A stretch of 64,000 nucleotides of DNA from Verrucomicrobiales bacterium (GTDB lineage: Bacteria; Verrucomicrobiota; Verrucomicrobiia; Verrucomicrobiales; DEV007), in assembly GCA_030730365.1 (NCBI GenBank), contig JANQVJ010000005.1:1-64000 (forward strand), read 5' to 3'. This document shows, piece by piece, positions 10,808 through 22,956 of this stretch. The position numbers were made by a program, and so were the translations under genes. Under the pieces are notes generated by a model. That model did not search any database. It was not told the origin of the DNA and saw nothing but the letters and a program-made list of their open reading frames with translations. Numbering within the stretch: the first letter of the stretch is position 1; each line of letters opens with the position of its first letter.

Positions 10808-11560
10808 ATGAACGCGCTTGGCAAAACACTCTGCCGATTTTGGGCTTCTTCCATTGGGAAGAAACTAGTCGTAGCTATCACAGGTATCATGCTTGTGGGA
10901 TTCCTCCTGGGACACATGACGGGGAATCTGCTCATTTATCAGGGCCGCAAGGATCTCAATGACTACGCCTATTTTCTCCACCACTTCCTTCACGGATGGG
11001 GGATCTGGCTGGCGCGTTTCGGCATCATCGTTGCTTTCGTCCTGCACATCGTCGCAACGATTTCTCTGACGCGGCAAAATCGGGTGGCGCGTTCCTCCCA
11101 GTATGCCTGCAACACCACCGTACAGGCATCGACGAGTTCGCGCATCATGATCTGGAGCGGTCTCACCGTGATTGCTTTTGTGATCTTTCACATTTTCCAC
11201 TTCACGGTCCGTGTTGACCCTGCTCTCGCGAGCATGAAAGACCCCGCAGACCCCTCGCGTCACGATGTCTACGGGATGCTGATCGCCGGGTTTAAAAATC
11301 CGCTCATTGTCCTTTTCTACCTTGTCTCCATCACCCTGCTCTGTTCACATCTCAGCCACGGGATCGCCTCGATCTTTCAAACGCTCGGGCTACGGACGGA
11401 AAAAACCCGAGTTCCCTTCGAGCGGCTCGGGCTCGCCATTTCCGTGCTGTTGTGGATCGGATTTCTGTCCATTCCTTTACTCATCCTGACCGGAGTCCTC
11501 ACAGACTCCGAACTTGCCTCGATGGCCTCTCCCGAAGCCCCTGCCGGGCTGAATCCCTGA
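10808..11560 (+). CDS. sdhC: Succinate dehydrogenase cytochrome b subunit (b558 family)
   Basis: [44 protein letters not shown]; followed by sdhA and sdhB. Confidence 0.92.
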
Positions 11561-11597
11561 ACCCTCCCTTTTTTCCGAACTCTCACCGAATCTGATC

Positions 11598-13604
<2,007 letters not shown>

Positions 13605-13650
13605 GTGCCCGGCGTAACCCTATCTGTAATCAAATTTTCGCAAAACTGTC

Positions 13651-14403
13651 ATGAACCTGACTCTCAAAGTGTGGCGCCAGAGCAGTCCGAACGCCACCGG
13701 ACGCATCGAAACCTACGAGGCCAGGGACATCCCTTCCGAGGCGTCCTTCCTCGAGATGCTCGATATCGTCAACACCGGCATCATCGAAGCGGGCAATGAC
13801 CCCATTCATTTTGACCACGACTGCCGCGAAGGCATCTGCGGGTCCTGCTCTCTCGCGATCAACGGTGTGCCGCACAGCAAAGAGAGTGGCATCACGACCT
13901 GCCAGGTCCACATGCGCAAGTTCCGCGAGGGTGACACGATCTGGATCGAACCTTTCCGCGCCCGCGCCTTTCCCGTGATCAAAGATCTCATGGTGGATCG
14001 CTCCGCCTTTGACCGCATCATCGCAGCCGGGGGCTACATCGACGTGCGGACCGGTTCCGCGCCCGAGGCGAATGCCATTGCCATCGGCAAAGAAGACGCC
14101 GACGATGCCTTTGACGCTGCTACCTGCATCGGTTGTGGTGCCTGTGTCGCCGCCTGCAAGAACGCGAGCGCCATGCTCTTTGTCGGCGCCAAGGCTTCGC
14201 ACCTCAATACTCTTCCCCAAGGCCATGCCGAAAAAGACCGTCGCGTCCTCGCCATGGTCCGCCAGATGGACACCGAAGGCTTCGGCAATTGCACCAACCA
14301 GTATGAGTGCGAGGCCGTCTGCCCCAAGGAGATCAGCGCCGACGTCATCGCCAAGCTCAACCGCGACTACGCTGCTGCTTCTGTTCGCGAAGTAGTTGAG
14401 TGA
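13651..14403 (+). CDS. sdhB: Succinate dehydrogenase iron-sulfur subunit
   Basis: [46 protein letters not shown]. Confidence 0.95.
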
Positions 14404-14821
14404 TCCTGCAACGTGCGCCCTGGGGGACGGAGGCGGACAGGGAGGTCTGCCTCACCTTTCCACTAGCCCGCATTTCTCGCACCCGTTCTACGGCGACTGG
14501 CTGCGGCCAGCCCGGCTTCGATCGCCTCAATCTTCGCTCCACGCCGGATGATCGCGATGATCCGGTTTCGCTGTTCGGCGGTAAGGTTCTCATGCATGAA
14601 AATGCGGGGCCTCTGTTTTGAGCAATCGTCACGAATTTACGGCTTTCGGCGGCAAATCCCGGAATTTGTTCAGCGTTTTCTTCCCCTGATCACGGATTGT
14701 CATTTCCATTGCATTGATTCTACTTTTCGTGACGCTTCTCTGTAGTAGAGTGAGAAGCGGCGGCAGGGGACTATATCCTGTTGAGCCGGAGACCTAACCC
14801 TTTTGAGTCGGAAACCCGAAG

Positions 14822-16576
14822 ATGTCCTCCCCAGTCGAAACCATTCAAACGATCAAGGTTCCCAAGCCGGTTCCCATCACGACGACCCGTTTCCGTCCGC
14901 CGAAGAAGAACATCCCCCAGACGAAGCCGGAGCGTGACCAGTTCCTCCGGACGATACGCAACTACGTGGCGTTATCGAATCCCGTCCCGCCGATGCCGCT
15001 TGAGGAGCTCGACGTGCACGCGCGTCGCATTCTCGCGGAGCTGGGCTACGAAGGGGACGAGACCTACCTGCACTACACCGCTGTCTGTCTCAACAACGAG
15101 ATGTGGCGCGAGACCCTCGCCGAGATTCCGTATGAGCGCCGCCTCCTCCTCATGCCGAAGTGCCTGCGCGTCGAGGACAAATGCCCGGCGCCTTTTGACG
15201 AGTTCGGCCTGCTCTGCAAGCAGTGCGGTCTCTGCTCGATCCAGGACTTCCAGAACGAGGCCGAGCGTCTCGGCTACGCCGTCCTCGTGGCCGAAGGGTC
15301 GGCCATCGTGATGTCACTCATCCAGACCGGACAGATCGAGGCCATTGTGGGGATCTCGTGCCTCGCGGTGCTGGAGCGCACCTTTCCCTACGTCGAGGCC
15401 GCGGCGATTCCGTCCATCGCCGTTCCGCTCCTGCAGGATGACTGCATCAACACCACCGTCGATATCGACTGGGTCTGGGAATATCTTCATCTCACGAGCG
15501 ATGACAACACGCGCCGTCTCGATCTCACCGCTCTCCACGAAGAGGTGAAGGGCTGGTTCACCCCCGAAAGTATCGCCGCCGTGATGGGCCCGATCGAGGG
15601 AAAACAGGAGGAGATCGCCCGCGAATGGCTCGCCCGTGACGGGAAACGCTGGCGTCCTTTCCTCACCGTCGCCGCGTTCGAAGCGCTGCGCGAAGACCGC
15701 GGCAATCCTCTCCCTGACGACATCAAAAAGATCGCCTTTGCGACCGAGCTTTTCCACAAGGCCTCGCTCATCCACGATGACATCGAAGACGAGGACCACG
15801 GCCGCTACGACCAGCCGACCCTGAATGCCGAGCACGGCGTCGCGGTGGCGCTGAATGCGGGTGACTTGCTCATTGGTGAAGGCTACCGTCTCATCGGCGA
15901 ATGTGAGGCTCCCGACGCGCGGAAGACAGAAATGCTCCTCATTTCGGCTCGCGGCCAGCGTGAGTTGTGTCGTGGTCAGGGCGCCGAGCTCGTCTGGGCA
16001 CGGAATCCCGAGCCGCTCGATTCGAAGCAGGTTCTTGAGATTTTCCGGCAGAAGACGGCTCCGGCTTTTGAAGTGGCGCTGAAGCTCGGTGCTTCCTACG
16101 CGGGGCAGCTCGATGAATTCGCCGGGGTGCTCGAAAGCTATTCCGAGAATCTCGGGATCGCCTACCAGATCCAGGACGACATGGACGATCTCGGAGCCGA
16201 TGCGGGGGACAACGAATTGGAGAAGATGCGCCCGAGCGTGCTCCTCGCTGTCGCGCGGGAGCGGGCCAAGGGTGACGACCGTGCGGTGCTTGATTCTCTC
16301 TGGAGCCACGAAGACCTCGCCGGGGTCGAGATTCACAAGATCCGCAGCCTTGCCCACGAACTCGAGGCTGACGACAAGTGCATGCTCCTCTTCGAGACCT
16401 ACAAGGAAGCGGCCGTCCGCAGTCTTGCCGATCTTGAAAACGCGAACCTGAAAGGGCTCCTTCGACGAGTCATGGGCAAGATTTTCAACGATCTCGAGAT
16501 CAAAGGCTGGTGCCGCGAGTTCGAGGTGAAGAACGGGGTGCGGGAGGAAGAGGCGGAAGCAGTGACTGCCGGCTGA
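14822..16576 (+). CDS. Fusion protein: N-terminal DUF116-like Cys-rich domain + C-terminal polyprenyl synthetase
   Basis: N-term RRLLLMPKCLRVEDKCPAPFDEFGLLCKQCGLCSIQDF...AIVGISCLAVL; C-term GKRWRPFL, HKASLIHDDIEDED (first Asp-rich motif), QIQDDMDDLGAD (second). Confidence 0.85.
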   Translation: MSSPVETIQTIKVPKPVPITTTRFRPPKKNIPQTKPERDQFLRTIRNYVALSNPVPPMPLEELDVHARRILAELGYEGDETYLHYTAVCLNNEMWRETLAEIPYERRLLLMPKCLRVEDKCPAPFDEFGLLCKQCGLCSIQDFQNEAERLGYAVLVAEGSAIVMSLIQTGQIEAIVGISCLAVLERTFPYVEAAAIPSIAVPLLQDDCINTTVDIDWVWEYLHLTSDDNTRRLDLTALHEEVKGWFTPESIAAVMGPIEGKQEEIAREWLARDGKRWRPFLTVAAFEALREDRGNPLPDDIKKIAFATELFHKASLIHDDIEDEDHGRYDQPTLNAEHGVAVALNAGDLLIGEGYRLIGECEAPDARKTEMLLISARGQRELCRGQGAELVWARNPEPLDSKQVLEIFRQKTAPAFEVALKLGASYAGQLDEFAGVLESYSENLGIAYQIQDDMDDLGADAGDNELEKMRPSVLLAVARERAKGDDRAVLDSLWSHEDLAGVEIHKIRSLAHELEADDKCMLLFETYKEAAVRSLADLENANLKGLLRRVMGKIFNDLEIKGWCREFEVKNGVREEEAEAVTAG

Positions 16577-17190: not shown

Positions 17191-17850
17191 TTAGAAAAAG
17201 AGGAAGCCGATGAGGGCGATCACCCCAAAGCCAACGAAGGGTAGAGAGAAGGCGAATCCGCTCTTGAGCCAGTAGGTAAAATCTCCCTGCGCGACAGCGG
17301 GTATCGATGAGATGGAACGCATCGCCGTTTTTCCTTTGAAGAGTCCCGGTTTTTTGCCGAAGCCGTTGATCATGGGGAGAGCATTGTCGATCTCGTCTTC
17401 GGCGGCTTCGATGTAGCTGAGCGCACGGGCGAGCTCGGCCTTGCGATCGGCCCGGCTCCACATCTCGGGACGAAGCCCGTTGATGTTGGCGAGGTGACCC
17501 TCGAGGCGCTCATGCGCGGTCGTGCAGTCTTCAGCAACGCGTCGTGCCTCGGTCGCCTCACGGTCGAGGACGGAGAGGTAACGATTGAGCTCTTCGCAGA
17601 CTTCGATGCGCCCGCTCTTGAACTGCTGCTCTTTTTTCGTGAGTTCTTCGAGTTCAGCGGTCTGGCGTTTGATCTGCTCTTCCTGTTGACGGAGGGCGCG
17701 GAGCTGATCCTGTGCCTGCTGATACTCGTCGTCGAGATCTTCGCTGTAGGGCGTCACCGCCTGGAACTGCTTGGGATCGAACTGAATGTTCAGATCGTCT
17801 TTGTCGTCTTCGTCGAAGAAAAAGGGATGAATTTCAGCTGTTGCAGACAT
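17191..17850 (-). CDS. Hypothetical coiled-coil protein with C-terminal TM segment
   Basis: DEYQQAQDQLRALRQQEEQIKRQTAELEELTKKEQQ; C-terminal FAFSLPFVGFGVIALIGFLFF. Confidence 0.6.
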   Translation of the reverse strand: MSATAEIHPFFFDEDDKDDLNIQFDPKQFQAVTPYSEDLDDEYQQAQDQLRALRQQEEQIKRQTAELEELTKKEQQFKSGRIEVCEELNRYLSVLDREATEARRVAEDCTTAHERLEGHLANINGLRPEMWSRADRKAELARALSYIEAAEDEIDNALPMINGFGKKPGLFKGKTAMRSISSIPAVAQGDFTYWLKSGFAFSLPFVGFGVIALIGFLFF

Positions 17851-17888
17851 GGTTCAGGAAGTTGAATTTTAATTAACCTCCATTAATA

Positions 17889-19631
17889 TTATAAATTGCT
17901 TAGAATTTCCAGTCTTTTTAGCTTTTTCCGTGAAAAAAAGAGGGGGGCCACCGTCGTCACAAAGGTGAGGGAGAGCAGGGCGAGGAAGCCGAGTTGGCTT
18001 GATGTTGAGCGGTACCAGTCGGGATCGACGGCGTTGTTTTTAAAGATATCCCACCGCAGATAGGCGAGGAGGAGGATAAAAGTCAGGATGTAGATGAAGC
18101 TCCCGACGAGACAGAGGGTGCCGCCAAAGCCACTCACGATCCTGGCGGCGTTGGACTCCTGCAGATTGGGGAAGATGACCCCGAGCCCTACCGCGAGACC
18201 GTTGAGCCCGAGGGCGAGGAAGGCTACGGCGGTAGCGAAGAAGACGGAATCGGCTAATCCGAGGCGGAGATTATAGCCGCCGATAAAAAGAATTGCGATG
18301 ACGAGGATGCCGCTGCTGAGAGTACTCGTGACGAATTTTTGGAGGACGATGGAGGGAAGCTTGAGCGGGGACATCGCGAGGATCCAGAGGCGGCGGCCCT
18401 CGAGGCTGAACTGGGGAAAAACAAAGCGGGTCGTCAGGGTCGAGAGGGCAAGGGCGCAGACAGCGAGGTTGAGAAAGGCGACAAGGTAGAGGTCGCGCGG
18501 CTGGTTCATCTCGCCGTTCATTTGCCGGAGACCGCTCGAGTAGATCGCGAGGAGCCCGAAGACGAGCGAAAACTGGACCCACTGAGCGGGTTCCCGGAAA
18601 AAGGTGAGGAAGTCTTTTCGCGAGATCGCGGCGAGGGGGCGTCCGACGAGGCGCCCGAGGAGAGACGGGTTCGGGTACTGCGCAGTGACCGAGGCGGCGG
18701 AGGGCTCGTTTCGCCGGTCGCGTCTCAGAGCGGAGACGGCGGAGTGTTGGAGGGAGCGGTTCCATGAATGGTAGAACCAGCGTCCCCCCGCATGGTAGAG
18801 CAGCAGCATCGCCATGAGGGCGTGACTGAGGAGGAGGGTGGGGTAGATGGCGGAGCCGAAGACGCGGTGGGGTCGGGTCCAGTCGACGATGGCGGCCGCC
18901 ACCCAGGTGCCGGGGAGGGCGCGATTCACGGCGATGCCGGTGTGGTGAAGGACGCGTTGGAAGGTGAGGGCAGCGCTGAGTCCGGTGTCCTCAACGATCT
19001 CGCGGTCTTCGAGCCCGGTGCGGACGGCCGAGGCGATGAGGAAAACGGTGAGGAGGCTAACCCCGATGACGATCTGGCGCCGGTTCATCCAGCGCACCGC
19101 CGTCACGAGGAGGAGCGCGCCGATCGCTGAGGCAAGGGTGAGAAAGAGGATGAGAATGAGCGAGGTCTTGATGAAAAAGTCAGGAGAGACCTCCCGTATG
19201 CGGGCAAAGGCGAGGAGGAGAGGCGCGAGGATGAAGGCGAGTCCCCAGCTCGAGAAGGCGGCTGATTCGAAGCATTTCCAAAGGAAAATGGTGCGGTGCG
19301 AGAGCGGCAGGGTGAGGAGCCAGCGGGTGTCGCGGTTTCGATAGAGCGAGATGTAGGCGGTGACGGCGACCGAGAAGATCAGCATCATCATGAAGCAGAA
19401 AAACATCACGTAGATAAGCCTGTCGCTGAGGAGTGTGCCCGCTGCAGGCAGGGCGGCGACATAGCGAAGCCCTTCGCTGAAGAGCCAGTAGGCGGCGACC
19501 ATGTAGCCGATCAGAAAGGAAGCGATCGTCGCACTCATGAGCCGCGAACGCCGCACCGCGACGGCCGTTTTCACCCGCAGCATCCGCAGATGGACGCGGA
19601 AGAGGATGAGCCATTGCGAATAGGTGGACAT
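17889..19631 (-). CDS. Large multi-TM protein, putative ABC-type exporter permease
   Basis: Many hydrophobic helices; NRDTRWLLTLPLSHRTIFLWK typical of ABC-2-like permeases; start set at MSTYSQWL (19631). Confidence 0.6.
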   Translation of the reverse strand: MSTYSQWLILFRVHLRMLRVKTAVAVRRSRLMSATIASFLIGYMVAAYWLFSEGLRYVAALPAAGTLLSDRLIYVMFFCFMMMLIFSVAVTAYISLYRNRDTRWLLTLPLSHRTIFLWKCFESAAFSSWGLAFILAPLLLAFARIREVSPDFFIKTSLILILFLTLASAIGALLLVTAVRWMNRRQIVIGVSLLTVFLIASAVRTGLEDREIVEDTGLSAALTFQRVLHHTGIAVNRALPGTWVAAAIVDWTRPHRVFGSAIYPTLLLSHALMAMLLLYHAGGRWFYHSWNRSLQHSAVSALRRDRRNEPSAASVTAQYPNPSLLGRLVGRPLAAISRKDFLTFFREPAQWVQFSLVFGLLAIYSSGLRQMNGEMNQPRDLYLVAFLNLAVCALALSTLTTRFVFPQFSLEGRRLWILAMSPLKLPSIVLQKFVTSTLSSGILVIAILFIGGYNLRLGLADSVFFATAVAFLALGLNGLAVGLGVIFPNLQESNAARIVSGFGGTLCLVGSFIYILTFILLLAYLRWDIFKNNAVDPDWYRSTSSQLGFLALLSLTFVTTVAPLFFSRKKLKRLEILSNL

Positions 19632-19825
19632 TCGGGGGGATGACTCGGCGGAATTCATTTGTGAGAGAAGATTAGCCGAATCCCCCGGGAATGTCTCGCA
19701 TTCTGAGCGGGTAGGGCAGGAATTGCCGGCGTTATTCTCCTCCTGTGGGCGCGAGCCGCTGAAAAAATTATCCGAAGGCAGGTCGAATCCTTGCCAGGCG
19801 ATTTGATCTGCTTTAAACTTATGCC

Positions 19826-20059
19826 ATGAGCGCACGGGATGTCATCATTTCCGAGATCAAAACCGCCCCGGAACCGGTCGTGCAGGAGGTCTATGATTTC
19901 ATCCTTTCCCTGAAGAGCAGGGACTCTGTCGGCGATCAGGAGTCGCGCAGCCGTTCAGACCCGCCTGATTTTCTCGCCCGGCAGAAGATTTTGTTCGGAG
20001 AAAAAGCCATTAACGACTCCGGAGAATTACTGAATGAACTCAGGTCGGAACGGTTCTGA
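19826..20059 (+). CDS. Antitoxin-like protein (DUF2281-like, VapB role)
   Basis: Short; IKTAPEPVVQEVYDFILSLK; stop overlaps downstream PIN gene start (TGATG). Confidence 0.65.
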   Translation: MSARDVIISEIKTAPEPVVQEVYDFILSLKSRDSVGDQESRSRSDPPDFLARQKILFGEKAINDSGELLNELRSERF

Positions 20060-20490
20060 TGCGATATTTTGACACCGGTGTTCTGTTGAAGCTGTATTTG
20101 CCGGAGCCCGGGGCGGACGAAGCGGTGGCGTTTGTAAAGGCAAGTGGCAACGTGCCTCCCCTGACGTTGCTGCACGAATTGGAGATGCGCTCTGCCCTGC
20201 GGCAGAAATTCGGCCGGGGTGAAATCACTGGAATCGAATGCAAGGGGGGGCTTTCGCAATTAGCAGAGGATCTCAACGCCGGTGTCCATGAAAAAGTGGC
20301 CGTGGTTTGGCCGGAGGTGTTTGCGACGGCAGAGTCGCTCTCGAGCATGCATGGAGTTGAGACGCTATGCCGATCTTTGGATACGCTGCATGTGGCCCTG
20401 GCCATCGAGTTGGGAGCAAAGGAGTTTTGCACTTTCGATCAGAGGCAATCACATATGGCAAGCGCGGCCGGGATCAGAGTTATTCAGTAG
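20059..20490 (+). CDS. PIN domain toxin (VapC family)
   Basis: MRYFDTGVLLKLYL N-terminus, RSLDTLHVALAIELGAKEFCTFDQRQ. Confidence 0.8.
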   Translation: MRYFDTGVLLKLYLPEPGADEAVAFVKASGNVPPLTLLHELEMRSALRQKFGRGEITGIECKGGLSQLAEDLNAGVHEKVAVVWPEVFATAESLSSMHGVETLCRSLDTLHVALAIELGAKEFCTFDQRQSHMASAAGIRVIQ

Positions 20491-20598
20491 CGCCCCGGCG
20501 TCGGCCCCTCGCCTATGCTGTGGGAACAATCCTCCTTCGACCACCCGACCCCGGATTTTTCGGGTTGGAATTTTGCAAGCCTCTCCTAGGTTGCCCCC

Positions 20599-21783
20599 AT
20601 GGCAAGCATAGGAACTCCCTTTACCCCCGAAGCGACTCGCGTGATGCTCTGCGGTTCGGGCGAACTCGGCAAAGAGGTCGTCATCGAGCTGCAGCGATAC
20701 GGCGTCGAGGTGATCGCGGTCGACAGCTACGAGAACGCTCCGGCGATGCAGGTGGCGGACCGTTGCCATGTCATTTCAATGCTCGACGGGGCGGCTCTGC
20801 GCGCGGTCATTGAAAAGGAAAAACCTCATCTCGTGGTCCCCGAAGTCGAGGCGATCGCGACGGACACTCTTGCCGAGATCGAGGCGGAAGGCGTTGTGAC
20901 GATCATCCCCACGGCGCGCGCGACTCAGCTCACGATGAATCGTGAGGGAATCCGGCGCCTCGCCGCCGAGGAACTGGGCCTCGCCACTTCGCCCTATCGT
21001 TTCGCTGCGACGGAGGAGGAATACCGCGCCGCCGTCGCTGAGATCGGTCTGCCGCTCGTGGTGAAGCCTATCATGAGCTCGTCAGGCAAGGGGCAGAGTA
21101 CGGTTCGCACCCCCGACCAGATCGATGCGGCCTGGCAGTATGCTCAGGAAGGCGGTCGGGCGGGAAAGGGCAAGGTCATCGTCGAGGGTTTTGTTGATTT
21201 TGACTACGAGATCACCCAGCTCACGATCCGCCATGTCGGAGGCACCTCTTTTTGCGAACCGATCGGTCACATTCAGGTTGATGGAGACTACCGGGAAAGC
21301 TGGCAGCCGCAACCGATGAGCGAGGCGGCGAAGGAAAAGGCGCGGGAATACTCGCGCGCCGTGACCGATGCCCTCGGAGGACGCGGGATCTTCGGGGTGG
21401 AGCTCTTCGTGAAGGGCGACGACATCATTTTTTCCGAGGTATCGCCCCGTCCGCACGACACGGGGATGGTCACGATGATTTCACAGGATCTCTCCCAGTT
21501 CGCTCTGCACGCCCGCGCCATCCTCGGGCTGCCGATTCCGAACATCCGCCAGCATGGTCCCTCGGCCTCAGCGGTCCTCCTTGTGGAGGGACAGTCGACC
21601 TCGATCCATTACGGCGACCTTGACCGGGCCCTCGAGGCACCCGATACTCAGATCCGTCTTTTCGGGAAGCCCCGGGTCTTCGGTAAGCGTCGCATGGGGG
21701 TCGCCATCGCCAGGGGGGAAAGCATTGCGGAAGCGCGGGAAAAAGCCCGTGCCGCCAGTGCAGCGATCAGCGTATCACTCTGA
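20599..21783 (+). CDS. purT: Formate-dependent phosphoribosylglycinamide formyltransferase
   Basis: [44 protein letters not shown]-grasp motifs [30 protein letters not shown]. Confidence 0.95.
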
Positions 21784-21855
21784 GAGGTTCAGGGTTTCAG
21801 GAATTCATCGGTTCAGGTGTTGAGGTTTTATTTATTCAATTAACGTAAATTTGGT

Positions 21856-22956
21856 ATGTCATCTATTGTCAAAGAAGCGCATCCGTGGCTTGAAAGTTTG
21901 GTGGTTTACGATCCCGGGAAACCGATTGAGGAGACGGCCCGCGAGCTGGGGCTCGATCCGTCCGAGATCATCAAGCTCGCCTCGAATGAGAATCCGCTCG
22001 GCCCTTCGCCGAAGGCGGTCGAGGCGATGAAGGTCGCTGCCGAAGGGGTCCACATCTACCCGGACGGTGGCGGCTACAAATTGCGCACGGCGATCGCGGA
22101 GAAATTCGGGATGGACCGGGACAACGTCGTCATTAGCAATGGCTCGAATGAAATCATCGAACTCGTCGGGCACGGGTTCCTGAGTCCCGGGGACAATGTC
22201 ATCGCGGCGCAGCATGCCTTCGTCGTTTACAAGTTGATGGCGACTCTTTTCGGAGCCGAGACGATCGAGGTGCCCGATCCGGGATTCACCCACGATCTCG
22301 AGGCGATGGCGGCGGCGATCACTCCGAGGACGAGGATGATCTTCATTGCCAATCCCAACAATCCCACCGGCACACTCGTGGGACAGGAGGAGATCGATCG
22401 GTTCATGGAGAAGGTCCCCGACCACGTCATGGTGATCTTTGACGAGGCCTATTACGAGTTCGTCGAGGATGCTCCCGACACGATCAAATACATCCGTGAA
22501 GGGCGCAACGTCGTCATCATGCGGACCTTTTCCAAGATCCAGGGTCTCGCCGGGCTGCGCATCGGATTCGGGCTGACGACGCCGGAGATCGCCCGGGTCC
22601 TCCAGAAATGTCGCCAGCCTTTTAACACGAACTCCATCGCCCAAGCCGGTGCCATCGCTGGTCTCGCGGATGATGAGCACCAGCAGGCCACCCGCGATCT
22701 CAACGACGAGGGCCGAGCCTATCTTCAGCAGGCCTTCGCCGATCTCGGTCTCGAGTTTGTGCCGAGCTATGCGAATTTCATCCTCGTGAAAGTCGGTGAC
22801 GGGGATGCTGTGTTCAGCGGAATGCTCAAGCAGGGCGTCATCATCCGGGCGATGCGCAGCTACAAGCTACCCGAGTGGGTGCGGATCTCCGTTGGCACAA
22901 TGCCGCAGAACGAACGCTGCATTGCCACGTTGCGGGAGGTGCTGGCGCAACTATGA
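21856..22956 (+). CDS. hisC: Histidinol-phosphate aminotransferase
   Basis: KLASNENPLGPSPKAVEAM, NPNNPTGTLV, TFSKIQGLAGLRIGFG. Confidence 0.92.
   Translation: MSSIVKEAHPWLESLVVYDPGKPIEETARELGLDPSEIIKLASNENPLGPSPKAVEAMKVAAEGVHIYPDGGGYKLRTAIAEKFGMDRDNVVISNGSNEIIELVGHGFLSPGDNVIAAQHAFVVYKLMATLFGAETIEVPDPGFTHDLEAMAAAITPRTRMIFIANPNNPTGTLVGQEEIDRFMEKVPDHVMVIFDEAYYEFVEDAPDTIKYIREGRNVVIMRTFSKIQGLAGLRIGFGLTTPEIARVLQKCRQPFNTNSIAQAGAIAGLADDEHQQATRDLNDEGRAYLQQAFADLGLEFVPSYANFILVKVGDGDAVFSGMLKQGVIIRAMRSYKLPEWVRISVGTMPQNERCIATLREVLAQL

Follow-up and report, generated by a model that had tools for sequence, protein, structure and literature searches.

A DUF116-polyprenyl synthetase fusion as the probable prenyl-chain supplier of an apparently undescribed isoprenoid pathway in Verrucomicrobiota

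The window analysed here, a stretch of 64,000 nucleotides from a Verrucomicrobiales bacterium (contig JANQVJ010000005.1), carries a gene whose product joins an N-terminal DUF116 domain to a C-terminal isoprenyl diphosphate synthase (IPPS) domain, downstream of the succinate dehydrogenase genes sdhCAB (Table 1). Both domains are well above their Pfam gathering cut-offs, with 123 bits against 25 for DUF116 and 140 bits against 27 for polyprenyl_synt, and both lie in one uninterrupted open reading frame (ORF), so the fusion read in the first-pass annotation was borne out. The same holds for its other structural claims: the synthase has both Asp-rich motifs, and the Cys-rich stretch quoted for DUF116 corresponds to residues 114-140, in which the cysteines are conserved and probably form an Fe-S site.

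Table 1. Features of the fusion gene and its upstream neighbourhood (positions in the window)
Feature	Position	Strand	Remarks
DUF116::polyprenyl synthetase fusion gene, 584 aa	14822..16576	+	single unbroken ORF, ATG start
DUF116 domain (PF01976), residues 79-221	15056..15484	+	Pfam, E 8.5e-36
Cys cluster C114, C121, C132xxC135xxC138	15161..15235	+	probable Fe-S or metal site, from sequence
C180	15359-15361	+	grouped with the Cys cluster
C208	15443-15445	+	grouped with the Cys cluster
Polyprenyl synthetase domain (PF00348), residues 264-497	15611..16312	+	Pfam, E 1e-40
First Asp-rich motif DDIED, residues 319-323	15776..15790	+	Ala314 at -5, kept in the family
Second Asp-rich motif DDMDD, residues 452-456	16175..16189	+	third Asp not invariant across relatives
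sdhB-fusion intergenic stretch, 418 bp	14404..14821	+	not operon-like
sdhCAB (b558-type)	10808..14403	+	neighbour in the window's clade only; judged no functional part of the system

Relatives of the fusion were collected as 80 genome_contigs loci from named genomes, the genomes searched being those of Verrucomicrobiota. In all 80 loci, the two domains stand in tandem and essentially at full length (60-97% identity by tblastn), which provides the taxonomic survey that had been proposed for the fusion and indicates that two frames have not been joined here by accident. The possibility of two separately translated proteins is thereby ruled against, and the window ORF is confirmed as a genuine single-chain fusion. 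In one MAG contig the frame is broken into two overlapping frames (L041:3993-5850), probably by an assembly error. No relative was found in viral contigs, and a large group of ORFs ("cluster 5") was discarded because it runs on the opposite strand of the fusion gene.

This domain fusion has been reported before, in a single sentence by Makarova, Galperin and Koonin (2015, section 3.6; PMC5898192) on Psta_0175 of Pirellula staleyi. There DUF116 is fused to polyprenyl synthetase, the same two-domain architecture as in the window, but their paper is silent on an operon, a pathway, a cyclase link, an ispH or crtI link and the distribution of the fusion. The same authors proposed by HHpred a flavodoxin/receiver-like fold for DUF116, with a flavodoxin-like, metal-binding role in electron transfer; they projected the family back to the archaeal ancestor and described archaeal DUF116 proteins with two membrane helices, encoded beside sulfite reductase or ATPase genes. 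This was the only paper on COG1852/arCOG02078/PF01976 found in the open-access literature, in which no assigned function for DUF116 was found.

We examined the conservation of the cysteines in an alignment of 49 fusions from about two dozen families. Seven of them (114, 121, 132, 135, 138, 180 and 208) are kept in at least 93% of the fusions, and the same seven, including the CxxCxxC pattern, are also kept in DUF116 proteins encoded as separate genes. This conservation suggests that the domain holds a metal or Fe-S site. The full-length AF2 prediction leaves DUF116 poorly modelled (pLDDT 40-50), while the domain modelled alone shows alternating strands and helices with a mean pLDDT of 75.6, in agreement with the fold proposed in PMC5898192. 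Foldseek returned no match to this model at E 0.001 or better, its best, non-significant matches being B12-sensor and receiver folds, and a search of PDB sequences with the DUF116 region gave no match. Structure prediction of the Cys site, which the first-pass annotation had suggested, thus yielded the alternating beta/alpha arrangement and no significant fold match. The conserved cysteines are consistent with a DUF116 domain that would bind an Fe-S cluster and move electrons, and such a redox role appears reasonably probable to us.

Most of the C-terminal domain was modelled with pLDDT > 90, and Foldseek places the domain on archaeal geranylgeranyl diphosphate (GGPP) and polyprenyl synthases (TM 0.82 to 1wy0). 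It shares with archaeal short-chain/GGPP synthases and polyprenyl synthases (e.g., 1wy0, 3mzv, 4jyx) both fold and sequence (E 4e-29), as well as a DDxxD first motif without insertion, and differs from them in the N-terminal DUF116 and in an altered GKxT region. No named NCBIfam IPPS equivalog (FPPS, GGPPS, OPPS or encapsulin cargo) reaches its cut-off for the fusion; the top NCBIfam score, 118 bits for the Family 2 encapsulin cargo polyprenyl transferase (NF041169), is far below the 450 bits required. In the 49 aligned fusions, Ala314 is conserved at position -5 from the first Asp-rich motif. By the general chain-length rule, alanine at this position fits products longer than C20.

Past the second Asp-rich motif, the canonical GKxT of the diphosphate-binding segment (GK..D..GKxT), which is no part of the Pfam PF00348 definition, is missing family-wide and is replaced by R/P/S residues of the (R)PS type. 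Owing to this loss, the synthase could have altered or no activity. One may thus picture the prenyl synthase domain as a binding or regulatory subunit, with DUF116 as a redox sensor gating isoprenoid flux; the relaxed third Asp of the second motif would fit such a role, as would the sensor and receiver folds among the non-significant matches of the DUF116 model. However, nearly all of the 49 diverse members retain DDIED, the K/R of GKRxRP, KT, GQ and the first two Asp of the second motif, and loss of the first motif is what one would expect of an inactive domain. We therefore hold a purely regulatory domain to be improbable, and the retained motifs argue for a synthase that is catalytically active. 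When the genome was searched for another polyprenyl synthase, as had been advised, two further IPPS genes of ordinary type were found, one type-II FPPS-like on contig C55 and one long-chain-like on C25, and these cover housekeeping.

The fusion had been described as lying directly downstream of sdhCAB, and a redox-linked step in quinone side-chain or lipid synthesis had been suggested from this position. The upstream genes are indeed sdhCAB (SdhC of b558 type, 166 bits against a cut-off of 96; SdhA and SdhB pass their own cut-offs), but the sdhB stop and the fusion ATG are separated by 418 bp, so that "directly downstream" is only partly correct. No pattern was found in a promoter and terminator scan of 14380-14860. 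Across the 80 genome_contigs loci, sdhB is near the fusion in 13, with a spacing of 192 to 5575 bp, and it is absent from 48 loci with 6 kb or more of sequence upstream of the fusion. A maximum-likelihood tree of 65 fusions groups the sdh-linked members, together with three unlinked ones, in a single clade of 14 with good support (100/99); the nearest outgroups of this clade (L035, L033, L034/L029/L030, L037) carry the fusion in another gene cluster. Since the clade is nested among lineages with the fusion elsewhere, the sdh position is derived, and the adjacency is incidental, a recent rearrangement of one terminal clade. On the 3' side, many close relatives keep the genes found at 17191-22956 of the window (a hypothetical protein, an ABC-2-type membrane protein (PF16949), and purT-like and hisC-like genes).

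These data bear on the idea that the fusion, as a polyprenyl synthase under redox control, supplies side chains for the quinone used by the adjacent succinate dehydrogenase. The adjacency itself, in the window and near relatives, speaks for it and so does the alanine at -5, which fits a longer-chain product, but the adjacency is recent, variable in spacing and restricted to one terminal clade. Moreover, the fusion is not the sole long-chain IPPS of the genome, as one of the two other synthases is of long-chain type, and making a quinone side chain calls for neither a terpene cyclase nor a toroid protein, both of which co-occur with the fusion (see below). We consequently rejected the link to sdh and quinone, given sdhB near the fusion in only 13 of 80 loci and a clade nested in non-sdh lineages, and regard a quinone side-chain role as very improbable. 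What stands of the suggestion is its general part, a redox step in the synthesis of isoprenoids or lipids.

A different neighbourhood recurs, a terpenoid-like operon that we take to be the ancestral one. In loci from many of 24 families, same-strand genes flank the fusion, usually overlapping or a few bp apart; they encode a ferredoxin (FdL) and a radical-SAM protein and, further downstream, an alpha/alpha-toroid protein and a squalene-hopene-cyclase-like protein. Counting genes on the same strand within 6 kb of the fusion in 33 loci of these 24 families, we found the toroid in 23 loci (19 families), the ferredoxin in 22 (17 families), the radical-SAM gene in 19 (16 families) and the cyclase in 14 (11 families). 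Some operons also include genes for a GcvH-like lipoyl protein, a CobW GTPase, a cysteine desulfurase or a small Cys protein.

Among the partner proteins, the ferredoxin is of the two-cluster type, and the N-terminus of FdL, or a separate protein of ~130 aa, carries CxC...DLC...ACxPRAV (e.g., L034:7056-7949 and L056:6611-7042), a pattern that may resemble the N-terminus of the heterodisulfide reductase HdrA. The radical-SAM partner has CxxxCxxC and three further invariant cysteines; its profile matches SkfB at E 3e-22, against a weak match to the archaeal GDGT-MAS synthase (7tol) at E 5e-7. The GcvH-like proteins retain the lipoyl-lysine motif. The toroid protein (PF00432, about 290 aa) shows, by eye, D-x-Y and D-x-E-Y where the D-x-C and His zinc ligands of protein prenyltransferase beta would be. 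The cyclase partner, about 600 aa, has the N and C domains of squalene-hopene cyclase (PF13243/PF13249) and an invariant D-x-D-D that aligns with PDVDDTA of squalene-hopene cyclase 1gsz (E 4e-39), and thus has the features of a class-II terpene cyclase. It shares these domains and the DxDD motif with the squalene-hopene/oxidosqualene cyclase family, but is far below the equivalog cut-off, with 100.5 against 431.1 bits for squalene-hopene cyclase sensu stricto (NCBIfam TIGR01507), and most of the genomes that carry it lack squalene synthase.

The genome from which the window comes has five of these partner families, scattered over its contigs: the radical-SAM gene on C11 (632 bits), the toroid and cyclase genes about 10 bp apart on C74, the ferredoxin with a small Cys protein on C52, and, on C39, a GcvH-like paralogue (229 bits), an ordinary GcvH being encoded on C69. 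The operon would thus have been scattered in the window's clade, the fusion having landed near sdhCAB by chance. Four genomes of the same order that lack the fusion also lack the toroid, cyclase-like and FdL genes and the orthologous radical-SAM gene. Two further arrangements were observed in the window's genome. On C39, a gene for an HpnD-like presqualene diphosphate synthase is followed about 20 bp on by the GcvH-like gene (L220:9087-10395), a pair that lies on different contigs or far apart in the other genomes of the order. On C74, a divergent gene upstream of the toroid-cyclase pair encodes a flavoprotein resembling dihydrolipoyl dehydrogenase or mercuric reductase (L189:6897-8321), which is a possible partner of the lipoyl GcvH-like protein.

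To follow these genes through the phylum, we scored 388 Verrucomicrobiota genomes, 63 of which have a DUF116 frame of fusion length. With fusion-bearing genomes called by the length of this open frame, the cyclase-like gene occurs in 60/63 of them and in 2/325 others (one of these two, G219, has a fusion cut by the contig end), the radical-SAM gene in 60/63 and 0/325, and the toroid gene in 61/63 and 5/325. Each of the three associations gives Fisher p < 1e-60, uncorrected for phylogeny; as the distribution is patchy and extends over many families, common ancestry by itself is unlikely to explain the co-occurrence. We are thus highly confident that the fusion belongs to the cyclase/toroid/radical-SAM/ferredoxin gene set. 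Four genomes have the toroid (G086, G195, G212, G318) and one the cyclase-like gene (G248) without any DUF116 match; they possibly represent variant or decaying pathways.

The distribution of squalene/phytoene synthase (PF00494) bears on the substrate of the cyclase. This family is absent from 49 of the 53 fusion-bearing genomes outside the window's order, indicating that the cyclase generally cannot depend on a known squalene synthase. The prenyl chain must then come from elsewhere in most carriers, the fused IPPS being the obvious source. Every tested genome of the window's order, with or without the fusion, has two PF00494 genes, so that squalene may be the substrate there.

The lack of squalene synthase in most carriers would also suit a route in which the fusion makes farnesyl diphosphate, DUF116, the radical-SAM protein and the ferredoxin couple it reductively to a squalene-like C30 chain, and the class-II cyclase turns this into a hopanoid-like product. 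Squalene-hopene cyclase is indeed the closest solved structure to the operon cyclase, the gene set offers reductive Fe-S and radical chemistry, and GDGT-MAS synthase, which the radical-SAM partner weakly matches, couples isoprenoid chains. However, this scheme is purely inferential, the radical-SAM family is closer to peptide- and sugar-modifying enzymes such as SkfB, and the conserved alanine at -5 points to a product beyond C15/C20. We therefore consider this particular route unlikely, while giving it some weight.

Moreover, DUF116 is linked to isoprenoid genes where it is not fused. We read 20 loci with a separate DUF116 gene, after setting aside a further one (L240) as a cut fusion. A divergent ispH lies at 40-141 bp in 7 of the 20 (L147, L149, L232, L234-L237), ispH is 0.8 to 3.9 kb away in 3 more, and a divergent gene of the crtI (phytoene desaturase) family lies at 21-133 bp in 5 (L148, L151, L152, L228, L229); the IspH and CrtI identities of examples are supported by HMMs. 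A rough binomial estimate, with L240 and L150 counted and to be read as an order of magnitude only, puts the chance of at least 8 of 21 loci being adjacent at about 3e-20. DUF116 is thus tied twice, independently, to isoprenoid metabolism, by its fusion to an IPPS within a cyclase operon and by its ispH and crtI neighbours.

Taken together, the fusion is probably the prenyl-chain supplier of a conserved isoprenoid pathway of Verrucomicrobiota, with DUF116 as its redox module. In the pathway that we propose, the C-terminal domain would extend an allylic diphosphate with IPP into a linear polyprenyl diphosphate, and the class-II DxDD cyclase and the single-toroid protein would cyclise this chain or a product of it, the IPPS product thereby serving as the cyclase substrate. 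DUF116, with its seven-Cys Fe-S or metal site and probable alternating alpha/beta fold, would act on isoprenoids as a redox module together with the pathway's ferredoxin, radical-SAM enzyme and lipoyl GcvH-like protein, these four contributing reducing or radical steps that modify the chain. A cyclic isoprenoid is rather likely to be the product, and the end product may be a hopanoid-like cyclic lipid.

No description of the operon, of the co-occurrence pattern or of the ispH/crtI linkage was found among the titles listed in searches of open-access papers, and we accordingly call the pathway apparently undescribed. A broader view, which we put forward as speculative and rather doubtful, is that Verrucomicrobiota, and probably Planctomycetota too, would have a squalene-synthase-independent route to polycyclic membrane isoprenoids, in which the DUF116-IPPS fusion and the radical-SAM, ferredoxin and lipoyl proteins reduce or couple chains that a divergent class-II cyclase then folds, DUF116 being a general Fe-S partner of IspH, CrtI and IPPS. 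An undescribed cyclic-isoprenoid pathway in a large phylum whose carriers mostly lack squalene synthase would bear on the reading of hopanoid and sterol biomarkers and on terpene enzymology.
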